Below, piece after piece: positions 51,506 through 60,567 of a stretch of 64,000 bases of DNA (its first letter is position 1; the number at the start of each line of letters is the position of its first letter). The translations under genes and the position numbers were made by a program. This stretch comes from Spirosoma endbachense (lineage in GTDB: Bacteria; Bacteroidota; Bacteroidia; Cytophagales; Spirosomataceae), in the NCBI RefSeq assembly GCF_010233585.1, contig NZ_CP045997.1, positions 9,522,461-9,586,460 of the forward strand, given 5' to 3'. The notes under the pieces were generated by a model. It did not search any database. It worked only from the letters and a program-made list of their open reading frames with translations, and had not been told where the DNA came from.

Positions 51506-52375
51506 CTACTTCTGCTTGGCCAAGGTTTGGTATCGAAAAGGGGTCATACCGGTATACAATTTAAACTGCCGGTGAAAATGAGAACTATTATTAAAGCCAC
51601 ACTCCATTCCTACCTGCCCAATGCTCATATCAACGTCGGTGAGAAGTTTTCGAGCATGACCAATTCGCAGTTCGTTGAGGTATTCAACAAACGACTTCCT
51701 CGTCCGCTTCTTAAAATAACGGCAAAATGCCGCCGATGCCATCCCCGCTATCGACGCAATCTGCTCGACCCGTATTTCTTCACGAAAGTTTGCCAGCATA
51801 AACTCCAGAACCCGCTTCATGCGCTCAGTTTCAGCTGCGCTGGGGGCTAATTGGTAACCATCACTAGCCAGCAAAATGGCGTCTCGATCTTCGGCTAATT
51901 GATCAAGAATTTCCAATAAACCAAGCAATTGCAGCAAACCTGTACGTTCTGGTAGCAACTCCATCTGCGCTCGCACTGCATCGCTGCCAGACGGGCTAAA
52001 GCGTAGGCCATACCGGGATCGTTCGAGGAGATGGCGTATTGCGCTGGCTTCCGGTACACTAGCCAATCCCTGTTGGGTAAATTCACCTGAAAACTGAATA
52101 ACAATCGATTCAGACTGACGGTCAAAACCGGCCTGATAAAAATCGTCATCATTGCGCCAGAAGTGAGGTAAGTCGGGCCCTAACAATACCAGATCGCCAG
52201 CTTCGAACGGTTCAACATGATCACCAACAAATCGGCGTCCGTAACTTTTAACAATATAGGTCAGCTCATACTCCGGATGGTAATGCCAGGGCGCATCGAA
52301 GTAGGGCAATCGAAACCGCCGAACCAATAATGAGCTCTGTTCGCCAAAGGTTAGTTTTTCAAATAAAGCCTTCAT
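51506..52375 (-). CDS. AraC family transcriptional regulator
   Basis: A 289-residue protein with an N-terminal cupin-type effector domain (DAPWHYHPEYELTYIVKSYG with the HxH fold) and a C-terminal AraC pair of helix-turn-helix motifs (VEQIASIAGMASAAFCRYFK, then IGQVGMECGFNNSSHFHRQF). It is divergent from the phytanoyl-CoA dioxygenase-like gene with 163 bases between, so it most likely controls that gene and itself. The ligand is unknown, possibly a sugar. Confidence 0.93.
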   Translation of the reverse strand: MKALFEKLTFGEQSSLLVRRFRLPYFDAPWHYHPEYELTYIVKSYGRRFVGDHVEPFEAGDLVLLGPDLPHFWRNDDDFYQAGFDRQSESIVIQFSGEFTQQGLASVPEASAIRHLLERSRYGLRFSPSGSDAVRAQMELLPERTGLLQLLGLLEILDQLAEDRDAILLASDGYQLAPSAAETERMKRVLEFMLANFREEIRVEQIASIAGMASAAFCRYFKKRTRKSFVEYLNELRIGHARKLLTDVDMSIGQVGMECGFNNSSHFHRQFKLYTGMTPFRYQTLAKQK

Positions 52376-52479
52376 TAAATACCCTATTTTAACACAGCCA
52401 GTAATCTTTATCGATTAATACGGTCAAAATTAAATACAAATAAGTAAAAACAGTGGTATTTCTTTTATTGGTTATAGGA

Positions 52480-52487
52480 TAATTTTG
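52480..52487 (+). promoter_or_regulatory. Candidate -7 box for the PhyH-like gene
   Basis: TAATTTTG matches TAnnTTTG and lies 51 bases before the ATG at 52539. A fitting -33 element was not seen. Confidence 0.3.
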
Positions 52488-52538
52488 TAGAGCAATTACA
52501 CGCTGGTAACTCATCTACTCTCCTACCCTTGTTCGTAT

Positions 52539-53372
52539 ATGGAAGCTACAATCGACAAAAAAATAGCACTTCAGGAGCTGAATACGCCGTACGAAGTCAG
52601 TCAGGAAGCCATCGATTTTTACAGAAAAAACGGCTATGTCAAGCTAAAGCAAGTACTTAGCCCTGCCGTTCTGGACTATTACGGCGATATCATCACCGAT
52701 CTGGTTTTTCGGCTTAATACCCTCATTAAGCCGATGGAAGAGCGTACAACCTACGAGCGGGCCTTTCTCCAGATTATGAACCTTTGGCTTGAGGATGAAC
52801 GGGCAAAAGAATTTGTTTTCTCCAAACGACTGGCAAAAATAGCGACCGACCTGATGGGCGTTCAGGGTGTTCGGATTTATCATGATCAGGCCCTTTACAA
52901 AGAGCCTTCGGGGGGTATTACACCCTGGCATGCCGACCAGTTCTACTGGCCATTGGCGTCGCCCAACACTGTAACGGTCTGGATTCCATTGCAGGCAACC
53001 CCGATGGAAATGGGACCGCTCGCTTTTGCCGAAGGAAGCCAGTGCGTAGAAATTGGTCGTGATGTAGAAATCAGCGATGAAAGCGAAAAAATTCTGGCCG
53101 ATGAACTACAGAAGCTTAATTTTAATGTACATGACACGCCGTTTGAGCTTGGCGAAGTGAGTTACCATGCTGGCTGGACGTTTCATCGCGCAGGGCCAAA
53201 CGTTTCGGATCGACCACGTAAGGTGATGACCATGATCTATATGGATCAGGGTCAGACGATTATGCAGCCACGAAATGAGTTCCAGGTAGCCGACCATGCC
53301 AAATGGCTCAATAATGTTCCGGTCGGCAGCCAACCACAGGATGAGCTAAATCCTGTATTATTCAGCTACTAA
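52539..53372 (+). CDS. Phytanoyl-CoA dioxygenase family protein
   Basis: A 277-residue non-heme Fe(II)/2-oxoglutarate oxygenase. ITPWHADQFYWPL has the iron-binding HxD, and YHAGWTFHRAGPN has the second His with the nearby Arg for 2-oxoglutarate. It hydroxylates a small molecule, substrate not readable. It is transcribed divergently from the AraC regulator and ends in a good terminator, so it is its own unit. Confidence 0.9.
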   Translation: MEATIDKKIALQELNTPYEVSQEAIDFYRKNGYVKLKQVLSPAVLDYYGDIITDLVFRLNTLIKPMEERTTYERAFLQIMNLWLEDERAKEFVFSKRLAKIATDLMGVQGVRIYHDQALYKEPSGGITPWHADQFYWPLASPNTVTVWIPLQATPMEMGPLAFAEGSQCVEIGRDVEISDESEKILADELQKLNFNVHDTPFELGEVSYHAGWTFHRAGPNVSDRPRKVMTMIYMDQGQTIMQPRNEFQVADHAKWLNNVPVGSQPQDELNPVLFSY

Positions 53373-53397
53373 CTAGTGCTTTTCCGACTTTATAAAG

Positions 53398-53424
53398 AAA
53401 CCCTGGCATCTGCCGGGGTTTTCT
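53398..53424 (+). terminator. Terminator behind the PhyH-like gene
   Basis: AAACCCTGGCA pairs with TGCCGGGGTTT, two-base loop, T-rich end, 25 bases after the stop. It lies before the ATG chosen for the DsbD-like gene. Confidence 0.8.
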
Positions 53425-53504
53425 GTTACATCAAGGACAAAAAAATGGAAATATTTTTGCAGTATTTCTGTTGTTCTTGCAAACCATCACTTACCCAAAG
53501 CGGT

Positions 53505-55601
53505 ATGAAATCATTTTTCGCACTCGTTGTGTGGCTGTTGCTGCCTCTTGCTACGTTTGCCCAGATCATTAAACCAGCAACATGGACCTATAAACCGGCG
53601 AAGTCCTCGGTCAAAGTTGGTGAAATAGTTGAACTACGGTTTACAGCTACTATTCAGGCTGGTTATCACGTCTTCTCGTCGGACATAAATCCTAAAATGG
53701 ATGGTGGGCCACTGCCAACAGCCTTTACGTTTACCCCCAACGCTACTTATGAATTGGTTGGGAAAGTTAAGCCAACCAGTAAGGTAGAAACTAAATATGA
53801 GGAGGTGTTTGAGGGCGATGTGTATTTAATGCACGGCCCGGCTCAGTTTGTTCAGAAGGTAAAAATCCTGAAAGAAAATCCAGTTATTACCGGTAATATT
53901 GATTATCAAGTCTGTACGGATAGAGATGGTCAATGCATACCCGGTAATGAAGACTTTTCCATTAGCGGCCTGGTTGTTTCCCCGCCAACCACTGCATCAA
54001 CAGCAGTAGCCTCGGTTCCCCAGACGGCATCGGTTGCAACACCGCCAACCTCTCAAACTACCGTTGCGGCCACGACACCAGCACCCGCTCTGACCGCAAC
54101 AGAAGCATCTGCCTCAATTGAGCCAATAGTCAAAGAAGCTTTAAAAGAACCGGAACAGGCCCTGGAAGAATCTGCTACTGCATCGGGCGGATCGTTGTGG
54201 GGATTTATGCTGGCCGCTTTTTTGTCTGGCCTGGTTGCCCTCTTAACGCCCTGTGTTTTCCCGATTATTCCGGCAACGGTTAGCTTCTTTACCAATCAGC
54301 AGGGTGGCCAATGGAAAGCGCTCTTATACGGTGCCTTCATTATTGGAATCTACGTACTGGTCGGCACGGTTGTTTCACGGGTTAACGGGCCCGCCTTTGC
54401 TAATTTCGTTAGTACGCACTGGCTGCCGAACATCCTGTTCTTTGCCATATTTTTTGTATTCGGACTATCATTTCTGGGGCTCTTTGAGATCGTGCTGCCG
54501 AATTCGCTGATTAACAAAGCCGATGAGCGGTCGGAAAAGGGCGGCATTGCTGGTATTTTCTTTATGGCTTTTACGCTCGTACTGGTGTCGTTTTCCTGCA
54601 CGGGTCCGATTGTCGGTAGTTTACTGGTAGCCTCGGCAGGCGGTGAAGTCATTAAGCCGATTCTGGGCATGGCGGCCTTTTCGTCGGCTTTTGCCGTACC
54701 GTTTACATTGTTTGCGGCTTTCCCACAATGGCTCAAAAACTTACCCCGGTCAGGTGGATGGCTCAACTCGGTTAAGGTTGTGCTTGGCTTCCTGGAATTG
54801 GCACTGGCCTTAAAATTCCTGAGTGTTGCCGATCAGGTTTATCACTGGCATTTACTCGATCGTGAAGTGTTCCTATCCCTTTGGGTCGTTATTTTCGCAC
54901 TGATTGGGTTCTATTTTCTGGGAAAACTTCGGCTCCCACACGACAGTGAGGTGAAATACATCAGCGTTCAGAAGCTTTTGCTGGCAATTGTCACGTTCTC
55001 TTTCGTGGTTTACATGATTCCGGGTTTGTGGGGAGCGCCATTGAAAGCACTATCGGGCTACTTACCTCCCGAAACATCGCAGGATTTTAACATCAGCCAG
55101 CAATCAGCAGGCAGTCAAGAGTCGGCAAACGCAATTTCCGAGCGTATCAAATATGCAAACCTATTTCATTTTCCGCGTGGGTTGCAGGGTTTCTTTGACT
55201 ATAAACAGGGATTGGCATACGCCAAAAAACTGAACAAGCCCGTCTTTATTGACTTCACAGGACATGGTTGTGTGAACTGTCGCGAGATGGAAGCCCGCGT
55301 CTGGTCAGATCCCGCCGTTATGTCGCGGCTTCAAAATGATTTCGTCTTGATTGCCCTCTATGTGGACGATAAAACCGAACTACCTGAGTCAGAGTGGTAC
55401 ACCTCAACGTACGATCAGAAGGTTAAGAAAACGATTGGCGGGCAAAATGCTGACTTACAGATCACGAAATACAACAACAATGCACAGCCACATTACTGCC
55501 TCGTTAACAGCGACGGAAAGTTACTGGTAGCACCAAAGAACTACGACCGAAGCGTCGAAAACTTCGTCGCTTTTCTGGAATCCGGCAAGGCTAAGTTTTA
55601 G
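53505..55601 (+). CDS. DsbD-like thiol:disulfide interchange protein
   Basis: Start chosen at the ATG at 53505 (MKSFFALVVWLLLPLATFAQ, signal peptide, 698 residues); the longer frame runs through the upstream terminator. Order: N-terminal DsbD-like domain with CTDRDGQC, a Thr/Ala/Pro linker, about eight membrane helices with LLTPCVFPIIPATVSFF and SFSCTGPIVGSLLVA carrying the redox Cys pair, and a C-terminal thioredoxin domain with GHGCVNCREME (CVNC). It transfers electrons from cytoplasmic thioredoxin to periplasmic proteins. Monocistronic. Confidence 0.93.
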   Translation: MKSFFALVVWLLLPLATFAQIIKPATWTYKPAKSSVKVGEIVELRFTATIQAGYHVFSSDINPKMDGGPLPTAFTFTPNATYELVGKVKPTSKVETKYEEVFEGDVYLMHGPAQFVQKVKILKENPVITGNIDYQVCTDRDGQCIPGNEDFSISGLVVSPPTTASTAVASVPQTASVATPPTSQTTVAATTPAPALTATEASASIEPIVKEALKEPEQALEESATASGGSLWGFMLAAFLSGLVALLTPCVFPIIPATVSFFTNQQGGQWKALLYGAFIIGIYVLVGTVVSRVNGPAFANFVSTHWLPNILFFAIFFVFGLSFLGLFEIVLPNSLINKADERSEKGGIAGIFFMAFTLVLVSFSCTGPIVGSLLVASAGGEVIKPILGMAAFSSAFAVPFTLFAAFPQWLKNLPRSGGWLNSVKVVLGFLELALALKFLSVADQVYHWHLLDREVFLSLWVVIFALIGFYFLGKLRLPHDSEVKYISVQKLLLAIVTFSFVVYMIPGLWGAPLKALSGYLPPETSQDFNISQQSAGSQESANAISERIKYANLFHFPRGLQGFFDYKQGLAYAKKLNKPVFIDFTGHGCVNCREMEARVWSDPAVMSRLQNDFVLIALYVDDKTELPESEWYTSTYDQKVKKTIGGQNADLQITKYNNNAQPHYCLVNSDGKLLVAPKNYDRSVENFVAFLESGKAKF

Positions 55602-55614
55602 TATTTCTCCTCAA

Positions 55615-55657
55615 CAACAAAAAAGGGCTGCCGAATTTCGGCAGCCCTTTTTTGTTG
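55615..55657. terminator. Bidirectional terminator between dsbD-like and desaturase genes
   Basis: Perfect 20-bp arms (CAACAAAAAAGGGCTGCCGA and its complement) with a three-base loop, A and T runs at the two sides. Confidence 0.92.
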
Positions 55658-55677
55658 TATGTTGTAGGTAAAGCGGA

Positions 55678-56709
55678 TTAAGCAGTGACTTTAGCAGGAT
55701 AATCCTGCGTTTGTACAATTTCTAAATCAGGCTTAGACTGGTCGGCAATGGTTACCCGCCCACGTTCCTTACGGACAATCCGCGAGTAAAGTGAAATCTC
55801 CTGATCGAAGAGGAACCGGAAAAATAACCGAACGAAAGACGTATGGTATTTCAGGGTATCGTAGTATTCGGGAGCTGACTTCTTAATATCCGGGAGTTTG
55901 TTCCAGGGAATCGAAGGGAAGTCATGGTGTTCGTTATGAAAGCCTACGTTTAGATTAGGCCCATTAAGTCTACCATAGTAACTGTAGGTCTCCTGTTCTT
56001 TATCAAGCGTTAAGTAGTGTTCCTGAATCCAGCGGGCCCCAAGTGGGTGAAAGCCAACAGAAAAGAACAGGCAAAGGCCAAGGAATATTAGTGCTTTCCA
56101 GCCAAACAAGACAACTATTAACGCATCGAAGGCAATCTGAACGATCATATTTGCTGCAACCCACTTGTCGATAACGGCCAGCTCGCGGCAACGAATCGTC
56201 CGAATACCCTGAAAAATAGGAAAAAGGAGTAGCCAGATCGCCTTACCAATCGCGTAGTTATTAATGAGTTTGGCTTCATACCAGTCTGGTAAATCAGCAT
56301 CTAACTCATGAACGCCCTGAAACGCGTGGTGCTTAATGTGGAAATTTTTAAAGGACAGTGCGGTCGGAAATACGGTCGGTAAGTTAGCAAAAATGGCTGC
56401 CCACATATTAGCCGAAGGTTTCCGGAAGATCAGGTTATGGGCTGCTTCATGAATGCAGACAAACAGCGTATGGGCTGGAAACGCGCCAATGAACCAGGCG
56501 GCCGCTACAACGACCCACCAGGATTGATCACGAACAAGATAGGCCATACCCGTCATTAGCGTAACACAACCCAGAATAACCCAGAATGTCGCTGGATTTT
56601 TCTGGCCAATAAGCTTTTTAATTTCGGGATGCGATTTCAGGATTTGCCGCGTACGAATACGGTGCGGTTCGGTAGTATTTGATCGGACAAAATCTGTGAA
56701 TGTTGCCAT
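55678..56709 (-). CDS. Fatty acid desaturase, sphingolipid delta-4-desaturase-like
   Basis: Start chosen at the ATG at 56709 (MATFTDFVRSNTTEPHRIRT, 343 residues); the frame reaches a TTG at 56730. Three di-iron His boxes are present: HEAAH, HIKHH and HNEHH, the third within NVGFHNEHHDFPSIPWNKLP. The N-terminus (RTRQILKSHPEIKKLIG), GFHPLGARWIQEHY, and ETYSYYGRLN match from memory the layout of eukaryotic dihydroceramide delta-4 desaturase (DES1: RREILAKYPEIKSLM, GLHPISGHFIAEHY, ETYSYYGPLN, YHNEHHDFPNIP). Four hydrophobic segments fit a membrane desaturase. It may introduce a double bond in a sphingoid or fatty acyl chain. The substrate is inference. Confidence 0.88.
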   Translation of the reverse strand: MATFTDFVRSNTTEPHRIRTRQILKSHPEIKKLIGQKNPATFWVILGCVTLMTGMAYLVRDQSWWVVVAAAWFIGAFPAHTLFVCIHEAAHNLIFRKPSANMWAAIFANLPTVFPTALSFKNFHIKHHAFQGVHELDADLPDWYEAKLINNYAIGKAIWLLLFPIFQGIRTIRCRELAVIDKWVAANMIVQIAFDALIVVLFGWKALIFLGLCLFFSVGFHPLGARWIQEHYLTLDKEQETYSYYGRLNGPNLNVGFHNEHHDFPSIPWNKLPDIKKSAPEYYDTLKYHTSFVRLFFRFLFDQEISLYSRIVRKERGRVTIADQSKPDLEIVQTQDYPAKVTA

Positions 56710-56969
56710 AAGTAAAGCGTCGCCGTACAATTCGGTGAATAACGAACGGTAAATTTAACAAATTTTCGGATTGTATAGACTCCTGCCCGTTCCGTTACCC
56801 AGATAATCTTTATTTCGAATCAACTTAAATTCGTCTTACTCTATTACCTAAAAGGGCTGTACACTACCCACGAAAAGCTAATTATCTACTAGCCAACTTT
56901 TTACGTAAGGTGTATTGAGTCGTTTTTTTCTTATTAACGCTAAATTTCGATTTAAATTAGCCAAAATAA
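56710..56969. other. AT-rich intergenic region, no gene seen
   Basis: Leader of the desaturase gene. No convincing reading frame or -7 box was seen. Confidence 0.5.
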
Positions 56970-56970
56970 A

Positions 56971-57010
56971 AGAGCCGCGTCTTCTCATTGAGCAGAGATC
57001 GCGGCCCTTC
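56971..57010 (-). terminator. Hairpin behind the 58-residue membrane gene
   Basis: GCCGCGTCT pairs with AGA-CGCGGC around an AT-rich loop, about 30 bases past the stop at 57040. Confidence 0.65.
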
Positions 57011-57039
57011 TTAATCGATTTATCAGTATAAATTCGATA

Positions 57040-57216
57040 TTAGTCCATTGATGGTTGGGGTTCATTCTGTGGCAATATATCTGCCTTAATCTGCTCAATC
57101 ACCCGTTCAATCATTTGGGCAGCCCCACGAAGGGCTCCGAAAATAATACATAACGGCAAAATGATGGGCAGAAAGAAAACCCATTGAAAGATCATGTACA
57201 AACGAAATTTTCTCAT
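57040..57216 (-). CDS. Small membrane protein, 58 residues, unknown
   Basis: An ATG at 57216 opens a 58-codon frame ending TAA at 57040. The protein starts MRKFRLYMIFQWVFFLPIIL, then PLCIIFGALRGAAQ, one hydrophobic helix, followed by an amphipathic segment and a Pro-rich tail QNEPQPSMD. It is flanked downstream by a hairpin terminator, which supports a real gene. No known family. It is too short to classify. Confidence 0.6.
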   Translation of the reverse strand: MRKFRLYMIFQWVFFLPIILPLCIIFGALRGAAQMIERVIEQIKADILPQNEPQPSMD

Positions 57217-57570
57217 CGGCTCGGCTAGTGATTTATTAGATTAAGTTAACGGTTTTTTCTATTAGTAAAAAAGAGAATGTCGATTGTTTTCACCACCTTC
57301 CATCCATAATCAAAATTAAACTTGTATTAATACAAAAACAAGTTATTTGTAAAAAAGTTCGATGAAATTAGATCCACGTGATTGAGCAGACTCATAAAAT
57401 CGTTGTCACCTGTGTACCCATTTTACTTATTATCAATTTTGATGCCAAAAAAAATAACATAAAATTGATAATACGCTAATTAACAATAAAATAGAATTGA
57501 CCCCTCATTTATACTCTATATTTTACTTTTAACCCAAACTTATTTCGTTATCCAGATCATTTTCTTACAA
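57217..57570. other. AT-rich intergenic region, no gene seen
   Basis: About 350 bases of low GC upstream of the small membrane gene. No frame over 30 codons was convincing. Confidence 0.5.
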
Positions 57571-57611
57571 AATAAAGCAGCTCGGAGAATCTCTCCGAGC
57601 TGCTTTATTTT
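57571..57611 (-). terminator. Terminator behind the aminotransferase gene
   Basis: Perfect 18-bp arms (AATAAAGCAGCTCGGAGA and its complement) around ATC, 18 bases past the stop. Confidence 0.92.
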
Positions 57612-57628
57612 GGTGTTATCTATTTCGT

Positions 57629-58846
57629 TTATTTCAATGTTGCCACAGCATCTTTAATCCGCTGTACGGCCTCAGCGAGTGACTCGTCGGAAGCAGCTGT
57701 CGAAATTCGAAGACAATTCGGCGCTCCAAAACCAGAACCCGCAACGGTTGCTACATGAGCAGTAGTCAATAACCACCCGGCAAAATCATCAGAGTTTTCG
57801 ATGGCCGTTGTGCCATCTGACTTACCGTAATAATAGCTGATATCCGGAAATGCGTAGAAAGCTCCTTCGGGTACATTTGTACGGAACCCAGGCACTTCCT
57901 TCAATAATTTTACGACCAAATCGCGACGACGATGGTAGGCTTTGGTCATTTCAAACGATGGCTCCAGGGTGCCTGTCAAAGCAGCGACACTAGCTTTCTG
58001 AGCTATTGAGTTCGTACCCGACGTAACCTGGCCCTGTAGTTTTTCAACGCCATCGGCGATCCATTTAGCGGCCCCAATGTAGCCGATACGCCATCCCGTC
58101 ATGGCAAAGCCCTTGGCAACACCATTGACAGTGATAACCCGCTCAGCAATTGCAGGAATCGAGCCAATACTAAAATGACCTTCCGGCGTAAAGTTGATGT
58201 ATTCGTAAATTTCGTCGGCCAGCACATAAATGTTATCGTGACGAGCTACAACATCGGCAATAGCACGCAGCTCGGCTTCCGAATAAATCGAACCGGTCGG
58301 GTTGTTGGGCGATGCATACATCACGATCTTGGTCCGGTCGGTAATGGCAGCTTCGAACTGTTCGGGGGTTACTTTAAAATTATTTTCGAACGAACCGTCA
58401 ACGACAACCGCCTTCCCTTCGGCCAGCTTCACCATTTCGGAGTAGCTAACCCAGTATGGAGAGAAAATAATTACTTCGTCGCCTGGATTGATCAACACCT
58501 GAATCACATTCGCCAACGAGTGCTTGGCACCGGTCGAAACAACGATATTTTCGGGTTTCCAGTCAATATTATTGTCGCGCTTGAACTTATCAGCAATGGC
58601 TTTGCGAAGATCAGGGTAGCCAGCAACGGGCGAATAGCCATGAAAACCATCATCAATGGCTTTTTTAGCCGCTTCGCAGATGTGTTGGGGCGTTTTAAAA
58701 TCTGGCTCCCCAACGCTCAGGCTAATTACTTTGTGGCCCTGAGCGGCCAGTTCACGGGCTTTTTTGGTCATCGCCAGCGTGGACGACTCCTCCAGCGCGT
58801 TGATGCGGTCGGCTAACAAACTCACGGTGTCAAGCGTGGCAGACAT
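57629..58846 (-). CDS. Class I/II PLP aminotransferase (aspartate aminotransferase-like)
   Basis: A 405-residue fold-type I enzyme. The PLP lysine is in TVNGVAKGFAMTGWRIGYIG, ASPNNPTGSIYSEAELRAIA carries the conserved N-P-T-G, and LADEIYEYINF the Asp that binds the pyridine nitrogen. It resembles the AspB-type aspartate aminotransferases of Bacteroidota. Substrate range cannot be read. It ends in a perfect hairpin terminator and starts 80 bases from folK's stop on the same strand. Confidence 0.94.
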   Translation of the reverse strand: MSATLDTVSLLADRINALEESSTLAMTKKARELAAQGHKVISLSVGEPDFKTPQHICEAAKKAIDDGFHGYSPVAGYPDLRKAIADKFKRDNNIDWKPENIVVSTGAKHSLANVIQVLINPGDEVIIFSPYWVSYSEMVKLAEGKAVVVDGSFENNFKVTPEQFEAAITDRTKIVMYASPNNPTGSIYSEAELRAIADVVARHDNIYVLADEIYEYINFTPEGHFSIGSIPAIAERVITVNGVAKGFAMTGWRIGYIGAAKWIADGVEKLQGQVTSGTNSIAQKASVAALTGTLEPSFEMTKAYHRRRDLVVKLLKEVPGFRTNVPEGAFYAFPDISYYYGKSDGTTAIENSDDFAGWLLTTAHVATVAGSGFGAPNCLRISTAASDESLAEAVQRIKDAVATLK

Positions 58847-58888
58847 AATCGGTGGTGATTTTTTAAGAAAATTACAACAAACTGACTA

Positions 58889-58896
58889 CAAAGGTA
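58889..58896 (-). promoter_or_regulatory. Candidate -7 box for the aminotransferase gene
   Basis: Minus-strand TACCTTTG, 43 bases before the ATG at 58846, in the same GTACCTTTGTAG context as at glyA and the ABC-F gene. Confidence 0.45.
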
Positions 58897-58925
58897 CTAT
58901 GTTTTCAGTGGAGAGGAGGTATTTT

Positions 58926-59408
58926 TCAGAAATTAAAAATTATTACCTCACCCTCATCCATACATTCGTCCAGCAACTCATCTATTGTTTTTTGTAACAC
59001 TGGATGAACAAAATCCGGTGCGATCTCGGCCAGTGGTACAAGTGTGAACCGTCGTACGTGCAGATACGGATGCGGAACCGTTAGGGTTTCCGTTTGCACT
59101 ATCTGTTGCCCGTAAAACAAGATGTCAATATCAATAACTCGGGCACCCCACTTTTCGAACCGCACGCGACCAAGCTCCTGCTCAATAGCCTGTGTCTGTT
59201 CAAGCAGTTCCTGTGGTTCCAGTTTAGTATCAACAGCCAGCACCTGATTCAGATAGGCCGGTTGGTCCGTTACACCCCAGGGAGCTGTTTCGTACAAACT
59301 CGACTGTTGTAGTAACGACCCAATACGTTTCACGATCAGATCACCGGCCCGATTCAGCGTCTGGACACGGTCGCCAAGATTTGCGCCGAGAAGGAGAAAA
59401 GTTTTCAA
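58926..59408 (-). CDS. folK: HPPK, folate biosynthesis
   Basis: A 160-residue 2-amino-4-hydroxy-6-hydroxymethyldihydropteridine pyrophosphokinase. FLLLGANLGDRVQTLNRAGD is the N-terminal signature, GRVRFEKWGARVIDIDILFY and PHPYLHVRRFTLVPLAEIAP hold the catalytic Asp pair and the pterin contacts. The only usable start is a TTG at 59408. It makes the pyrophosphorylated pterin for folate. A long inverted repeat lies just upstream. Confidence 0.93.
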   Translation of the reverse strand: MKTFLLLGANLGDRVQTLNRAGDLIVKRIGSLLQQSSLYETAPWGVTDQPAYLNQVLAVDTKLEPQELLEQTQAIEQELGRVRFEKWGARVIDIDILFYGQQIVQTETLTVPHPYLHVRRFTLVPLAEIAPDFVHPVLQKTIDELLDECMDEGEVIIFNF

Positions 59409-59422
59409 TGAGAAAATGGGTT

Positions 59423-59494
59423 AGGGCTTTCGCTCAGAAGCGTGCCACTGATGTTACTTGTGATAACCGTGGTACGCTTCTGAGCGAAAGTCCT
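59423..59494. repeat. 26-bp near-perfect inverted repeat
   Basis: Arms at 59423-59448 and 59469-59494 are reverse complements except at two positions, both of which could form G-U pairs. The core is TTTCGCTCAGAAGCG. The 20-base loop contains a further GTTA/TAAC pair. It lies in the folK leader between the SUMF1-domain gene terminator and folK. Confidence 0.8.
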
Positions 59495-59503
59495 ATGAGT
59501 AAG

Positions 59504-59548
59504 AAAACGGATGGGTGAATGAAGATGCCTTTCACTCATCCGTTTTTT
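59504..59548 (-). terminator. Terminator behind the SUMF1-domain gene
   Basis: AAAACGGATGGGTGAA pairs with TTCACTCATCCGTTTT (one wobble), with A/T runs. Confidence 0.85.
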
Positions 59549-59553
59549 AGTCT

Positions 59554-60567
59554 TTAATAATCTTTGATTGGTTTGATATCGTAATATGCCTTGATTTCTT
59601 CCTCGCTTGGCGTTTTGGCCGGACGAACGAACCGGAAGCCTACGAACGAAGCGGACGTTAGCCACCAGTCTGATTTTGGGCTTTGCGGGTCAAGTACTTT
59701 CCAGGCCGGAGCCGACGGTGTCCGGGCTGCCGACCGCAACACAGTCGGGTCATCGTCCCAGGAGCCACCCCGCACCGAGTTTGGATAAAGGGTCGTCGTT
59801 GGTGCGTAAGGTTCCTTTACGGTTCCTTTTGCCACCGATGCGTAATAATCTTCAATGTATTGATCCTGAGTCCATTCCATTACATTGCCATGCATGTCAT
59901 AGAGCCCAAACGAGTTTGGTTTCTTGGTTCCAACTTTTTTATAGCCGCCACCACTATTACCATTAAAAACTGCGTATTCACCTAATTTCTTCACATCGCT
60001 TCCGAATGAATAGGCCAATGTAGCATTCTTATCATTTCCCCGGCAGGCATATTCCCATTCAGCTTCCGTTGGCAGGCGATAAAAAACACCCGTCTTGGCA
60101 TAAAGCCACGCGCAGAATTTTATGGCTGCATATTGCGTCATATTAATAGCCGGATAGCCCGAACGACCCATGCCGAACGACATATCGACATAGGGTGGGC
60201 TGGGCCGTGTGGTAGCGTCTGTTTTGGCAAGGTTTGCGTCAGTCTGCGTGTATTTGGCAGCCATTTCCTTCTCCATGTTGGTGAAGGCAAACAAGTCATA
60301 AAGATCCCAGGTCACTTCATATTTACCCATATAAAACGGCTCAATCACCACGCTATGCTGTGGACTTTCGTCAGGTTTATGACCTTTTTCTGAGGGCAGA
60401 CTACCCATTAGAAATTTACCGCCCGGAATGGCTACCAGGGCATAGGTCTGGTCGCTACCCGGAATAACCTGTGTGTACGATTTAAAAGTGGTAGTCGTTT
60501 GTGCAGTTGTATGAACTACCGAACCAATGGCAATGGCAATGGCTACACTGAGATGTTTCAGATGCAT
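59554..60567 (-). CDS. Secreted SUMF1/FGE-domain protein without catalytic cysteines
   Basis: A 337-residue protein with signal peptide MHLKHLSVAIAIAIGSVVHTTAQ. The FGE-sulfatase domain is clear: VAIPGGKFLMGSLPSEKGHK, YRLPTEAEWEYACRG, FGLYDMHGNVMEWTQDQY and NSVRGGSWDDDPTVLRSAAR then GFRFVRP. The two catalytic cysteines of formylglycine-generating enzymes should follow GGS; here the sequence is WDDDPTVLRS, and the only cysteines are two elsewhere. So it is not an active FGE. Gliding and T9SS proteins GldK/GldJ share the fold, which makes a structural role possible. Confidence 0.88.
   Translation of the reverse strand: MHLKHLSVAIAIAIGSVVHTTAQTTTTFKSYTQVIPGSDQTYALVAIPGGKFLMGSLPSEKGHKPDESPQHSVVIEPFYMGKYEVTWDLYDLFAFTNMEKEMAAKYTQTDANLAKTDATTRPSPPYVDMSFGMGRSGYPAINMTQYAAIKFCAWLYAKTGVFYRLPTEAEWEYACRGNDKNATLAYSFGSDVKKLGEYAVFNGNSGGGYKKVGTKKPNSFGLYDMHGNVMEWTQDQYIEDYYASVAKGTVKEPYAPTTTLYPNSVRGGSWDDDPTVLRSAARTPSAPAWKVLDPQSPKSDWWLTSASFVGFRFVRPAKTPSEEEIKAYYDIKPIKDY

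Follow-up and report, generated by a model that had tools for sequence, protein, structure and literature searches.

In this work, we analyzed a window of 64,000 nucleotides from Spirosoma endbachense, in which a DES-family desaturase gene lies on the minus strand at 55678..56709. The open reading frame runs from an ATG at 56709 to the end of the stop codon at 55678 and encodes 343 amino acids; starting from an alternative in-frame TTG upstream (56730), the product would have 350. Two Pfam domains were found above their cut-offs, namely FA_desaturase (PF00487; 88.2 bits against 29.7) and Lipid_DES (PF08557; 49.2 bits against 23). The latter covers an N-terminal stretch at 56602..56697 of the minus strand (residues 5-36). 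This is the only PF08557 match across the 10.33-Mb one-contig genome, and the gene is single copy by ORF and Pfam evidence. Three His boxes follow on the same strand: HEAAH (56437..56451, residues 87-91), HIKHH (56326..56340, residues 124-128), and HNEHH (55924..55938, residues 258-262). Their histidines, including H87 and H91, are invariant in an alignment of nine bacterial and two animal sequences, as are E240, T241, and S243-G246 of the segment ETYSYYG (55972..55992, minus strand, residues 240-246). A preliminary description of this DNA had named this reading frame, the three His boxes, and the segments RTRQILKSHPEIKKLIG, ETYSYYG, and NEHHDFPSIP; the frame is real, and all of these elements are present in its translation. 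The structure model obtained for this membrane protein has a mean pLDDT of 83.8. In Foldseek, two matches reached E <= 1e-3, both of them chains of a chloroplast motor complex; AlkB, an alkane monooxygenase, came next at E 1.6e-3, with stearoyl-CoA desaturase as a weak match (E 0.046). These matches suit a putative membrane di-iron fold but are not proof of it, and by sequence no related solved structure was found at E <= 1.

Downstream, the desaturase gene faces a convergent dsbD-like gene, and between the two lies a 20-pair hairpin followed by T-rich sequence (55615..55657). Judged by stem length, this hairpin is probably a terminator common to both genes; terminator-like sites numbered 3, against 2.5 expected. 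A second 20-pair hairpin was observed at 57568-57612; it lies upstream of the desaturase, in a gap of 0.9 kb, and adjoins an aminotransferase-like gene. Past the dsbD-like gene are a PhyH dioxygenase gene and a divergent AraC-type regulator gene; within 52539-55601, the PhyH-family gene ends four bases before the frame of the dsbD-like ORF. Among the 582 DES loci confirmed in genome contigs, 80 were listed, and in these together with the window the block on the dsbD side (dsbD-like, PhyH, and AraC-type) is common to 11 loci, the window included. By eye, neither serine palmitoyltransferase (SPT) nor SulA was recognised near the desaturase in the 28 most shared neighbour clusters of the 80 loci and the window, and one cluster (15 loci) resembles PlsC-type acyltransferases. 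We recognised no lipid gene next to the desaturase, and no RNA family exceeded the threshold within 52000-60000. The surroundings thus give the desaturase no link to a lipid pathway.

In blastp, four sphingolipid delta-4 desaturases from animals and plants matched the protein with 38-41% identity (E 2e-72 to 3e-84), whereas the remaining four PF00487 proteins encoded in its genome gave E values of 1.4e-4, 0.33, 0.74, and 6.4, with 20% identity at best. We also built a tree of 73 rows (56 bacterial DES, eight animal, seven plant, and two outgroup), in which the desaturase is one of 19 Bacteroidota rows in a starred set (support 100/100). Animal DES1/DEGS1 and their plant counterparts have the same Lipid_DES and FA_desaturase domains, equally placed His boxes, and the ETYSYYG and NEHHDFP segments; unlike them, the bacterial protein sits in a bacterial-only clade, and its own genome has no SPT over the cut-off. 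By these sequence criteria, the desaturase is a member of the sphingolipid delta-4 desaturase (DES) family. The resemblance to DES1 rather than to ordinary acyl desaturases that had been proposed in the preliminary description is thus borne out by Pfam, tree, and blastp, and placement among acyl-lipid or acyl-CoA desaturases, for which we looked, was not found. An identity as an ordinary acyl desaturase was rejected, the protein being far closer to DES than to the other PF00487 proteins of its genome. Every model in the NCBIfam scan scored below its curated cut-off; the candidates rejected in this way include CrtW ketolase (38.9 bits against 350) and a DesA-type desaturase (18.8 bits against 500).

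Proteins of this kind are common. A protein database search returned 6,658 matches at E <= 1e-3, and the 120 of these that were listed carry both domains, are 62-91% identical to the desaturase, and are in many cases labelled sphingolipid delta-4 desaturase. PF08557 was found in 41 of 392 Bacteroidota genomes sampled. The expectation that such an enzyme would be rare in bacteria must therefore be tempered, at least for this phylum. No viral homologue was confirmed in the viral contigs searched. The best-aligning proteins of other Spirosoma genomes are 83-90% identical to the desaturase, and the gene is under constraint in the Spirosoma group, with pN of 0.067-0.112 and pS of 0.755-0.888 in 11 comparisons (we give pN and pS and no dN/dS ratios because synonymous sites are saturated). 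In JGI and UniRef, the Bacteroidota proteins that bear the label sphingolipid delta-4 desaturase or sphingolipid 4-desaturase/C4-monooxygenase belong to the same family and show no difference from it at the gene level. The desaturase is thus a genuine and already labelled family member, and it is the assumed substrate that is doubtful.

The first enzyme of long-chain-base synthesis is informative in this respect. That no sphingoid synthesis gene lies in the window had been pointed out in the preliminary description, and this part of it extends to the whole genome, in which no SPT exceeds the NCBIfam cut-off (the model may miss an SPT of another kind); what the genome does hold is a SulA-type cysteate acyltransferase. 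The SPT model NF047600 has five matches genome-wide, the best at 344.8 bits against a cut-off of 640. One of these (L002) passes two NCBIfam cut-offs as a glycine C-acetyltransferase, another (L005) lies beside a bioD-like ORF and fits BioF best, below the cut-off, and the fifth (L006) is weak at 78 bits. The two that remain (L003 and L004) are SulA-like and exceed no NCBIfam cut-off. L003 scores 593 bits with SulA (7U7H), 567 with a cysteate acyltransferase (28EH), and 232 with SPT (3A2B), and it is 84-92% identical to the SulA proteins of Spirosoma and close genomes that head its match list. According to PMC9304779, Lys281 of SulA, which is Ala in Spt, may tell sulfonolipid synthases from sphingolipid synthases. 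This column is Lys in all 31 SulA-like loci read, L003 included, and Ala in 11/11 SPT loci, with L062 unreadable; in the named DES-bearing genomes, it is Lys in 30/30 SulA loci read and Ala in the 11 readable of 12 SPT loci. L004 has Arg at this position.

Other features of these two loci were also observed. Short-chain dehydrogenase, diacylglycerol-kinase-like, and MaoC-like proteins, which are possible lipid genes, are encoded within about 5 kb of L003 (L175, G000:C1:3486000-3502000). The short-chain dehydrogenase, about 3 kb away, is a candidate 3-ketocapnine reductase only loosely, its superfamily being large. L004 lies on the plus strand at 7604-8812 of L176 (G000:C1:9263000-9279000), beside a Rep3 initiator, a DUF5712 protein, a TraG/VirD4-type coupling protein, and a transposase-like pair, and with such neighbours it looks like mobile-element cargo. 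In Spirosoma spitsbergense, a second copy is 45% identical to L004.

Taking family and genome together, we propose that the enzyme introduces a delta-4 double bond into an N-acylated long-chain base, which is probably capnine in this organism, and so yields delta-4 sulfonolipids; to this reading we assign a probability of roughly 0.45. The reaction, the bond position, and the substrate are all inferred. As a membrane di-iron enzyme of the DES family, the protein would most likely dehydrogenate the long-chain base at C4-C5, removing two hydrogens and leaving a trans-4 double bond in the N-acylated lipid. The base would probably be capnine, which the SulA-type enzyme encoded elsewhere in the genome would form from cysteate, and the predicted product is not a ceramide but a sulfonolipid with delta-4 unsaturation. 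The simplest account that keeps the chemistry of the family is that the desaturase acts on whichever base the cell makes, and the evidence points to capnine. A 4-ene is known from flavocristamide A. The SulA/CapB sulfonolipid pathway (PMC9304779; PMC10191378) resembles this genome in having a SulA-type enzyme with Lys, but differs in that its description, in the passages of these papers that we consulted, has no desaturase step.

To place this reading in a wider frame, we examined the occurrence of DES, SPT, and SulA in a class sample of 197 genomes, with L003 as the query for the SulA type (E <= 1e-90) and E <= 1e-150 for SPT. The SulA type was found in 174 genomes, SPT in 14 (13 over the cut-off), and DES in 13. 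With kinship ignored, SPT occurs in five of the 13 DES genomes against 9/184 others (Fisher p 0.0008), and the association holds by genus (4/9 vs 6/110, p 0.003, kinship again ignored); the corresponding counts for SulA, likewise uncorrected for kinship, are 12/13 and 162/184 (p 0.54). At these thresholds, one genome with DES (G539) lacks both synthases. The association of DES with SPT is in keeping with a family that acts on ceramide and leans against capnine as a general rule.

We also searched the genomes of 50 of the 80 listed DES loci for both synthases; the 30 left out are metagenome assemblies for the most part, along with some isolates of Hymenobacter and Mucilaginibacter. An SPT (E <= 1e-120) was present in 14/50 of these DES-bearing genomes (12 over the cut-off): nine Mucilaginibacter, two Ferruginibacter, two Saprospiraceae, and one Xanthocytophaga (472 bits). 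The SulA type was present in 49/50, the exception being one Mucilaginibacter with SPT. The remaining 36, some of which are MAGs, have SulA and no SPT match at E <= 1e-120: 16 from Spirosoma, Fibrisoma, and Fibrella (16/16), nine from Pseudarcicella, Aquirufa, Arcicella, Sandaracinomonas, and Flectobacillus, and 11 from Hymenobacter. In Spirosoma telluris, the SulA reading contains stops. The single Flectobacillus genome searched, apparently a small MAG, has no SPT match. From its conservation throughout the Spirosoma group, the desaturase gene works there without any SPT found. SulA also occurs in genomes that have SPT (7/14 in the class sample and 13/14 among the named DES genomes), which fits poorly with the possible mutual exclusivity of sphingolipids and sulfonolipids suggested in PMC10191378.

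The counts above bear on a second explanation, the one in the preliminary description, by which the protein is a dihydroceramide delta-4 desaturase with a ceramide-type product, and sphinganine would come from a route that escaped our search, such as L003 or L004 acting on serine. Family identity, the association of DES with SPT in the class sample, and the Arg of L004, which is neither the diagnostic Lys nor Ala, are in its favor. A further point is that no column of the DES alignment separates 11 SulA-only genomes from nine SPT genomes (threshold 10/11 and 8/9), from which either the enzyme ignores the head group or the substrate is identical in both groups. Flectobacillus major, whose relative of the desaturase is 69% identical, is reported to produce sphingolipids; both this and the lack of a separating column count for ceramide and against capnine. 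These points are set against a genome without SPT over the cut-off, against the 36/50 DES genomes without a match, and against an L003 that is SulA-like with Lys. Moreover, a search of the 196 other class genomes gave no relative of L004 at E <= 1e-125, so that L004 cannot account for a lineage-wide pattern. As stated, the dihydroceramide substrate is therefore unsupported, and we regard this explanation as rather unlikely.

An improbable alternative is that the protein is a C4-hydroxylase, or a mixed desaturase/hydroxylase like animal DES2, and yields 4-hydroxy bases. DES2/DEGS2, a delta-4 desaturase/C4-monooxygenase, is a close relative with the same domains, and the desaturase is about equally similar to it (41% in blastp, shark row) and to DES1 (38%). 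However, the second place of His box 3 is Asn in the desaturase, in the animal DES1 rows, and in all 56 bacterial DES rows, and Met or Val in three DES2 rows. The choice of Asn or Met here presumably bears on whether the DES1 or the DES2 reaction is carried out; if this role is right, the Asn leans toward desaturation over hydroxylation. It is similarly improbable that the enzyme is a desaturase or hydroxylase of another lipid (a membrane-lipid acyl chain or a carotenoid) sharing only descent with DES, for which the 36-42% identity to eukaryotic enzymes in aligned rows and the best NCBIfam names (CrtW carotenoid ketolase and fatty acid desaturases, none of them anywhere near its cut-off) could be cited, against a Lipid_DES domain over its cut-off, full-length similarity to DES, and next to none to the other desaturases of the genome.

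Should the substrate be capnine, a whole set of genomes carries a wrong label, as the public labels speak of sphingolipid desaturases and leave out the context of SulA without SPT, and delta-4 sulfonolipids gain a candidate gene. We further consider, somewhat more tentatively than for the S. endbachense enzyme itself, that Spirosoma, the Flectobacillus group, and Hymenobacter have turned a DES enzyme to sulfonolipids and make delta-4-unsaturated N-acylcapnines of the flavocristamide A type, such that the C4 double bond of animal ceramides would also mark bacterial signal lipids to which choanoflagellates respond. The sulfonolipid RIF-1 acts on a choanoflagellate (PMC3463246), and Flectobacillus major is a rosette inducer in a table of that paper, the activity there being shown for a sulfonolipid of another genus. 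With capnine as the substrate, such structural cues from Bacteroidota to the relatives of animals could be approached genetically. A ceramide substrate would instead require these lineages to have an SPT that current models miss, and either outcome is informative.

The DES tree also raises the question of where eukaryotic DES came from. The clade of the desaturase differs from eukaryotic DES, whose nearest neighbour is another, small bacterial set: animal and plant DES group at 97/92 and are joined to the bacterial rows L007-L011 at 100/99, although the tree program warned of long branches meeting at this point. The root is unusable, as the two outgroups are too distant and their branches are at the program limit (length 10). 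When nine long rows were dropped (seven bacterial and both outgroups), a quick tree placed the eukaryotes on one side (89, unstarred) and the other bacteria together (100). L007-L011 form a small DES group from another part of the phylum, and L007 is 45-51% identical to animal and plant DES; it lies on a single contig of 3.75 Mb, so contamination is unlikely.
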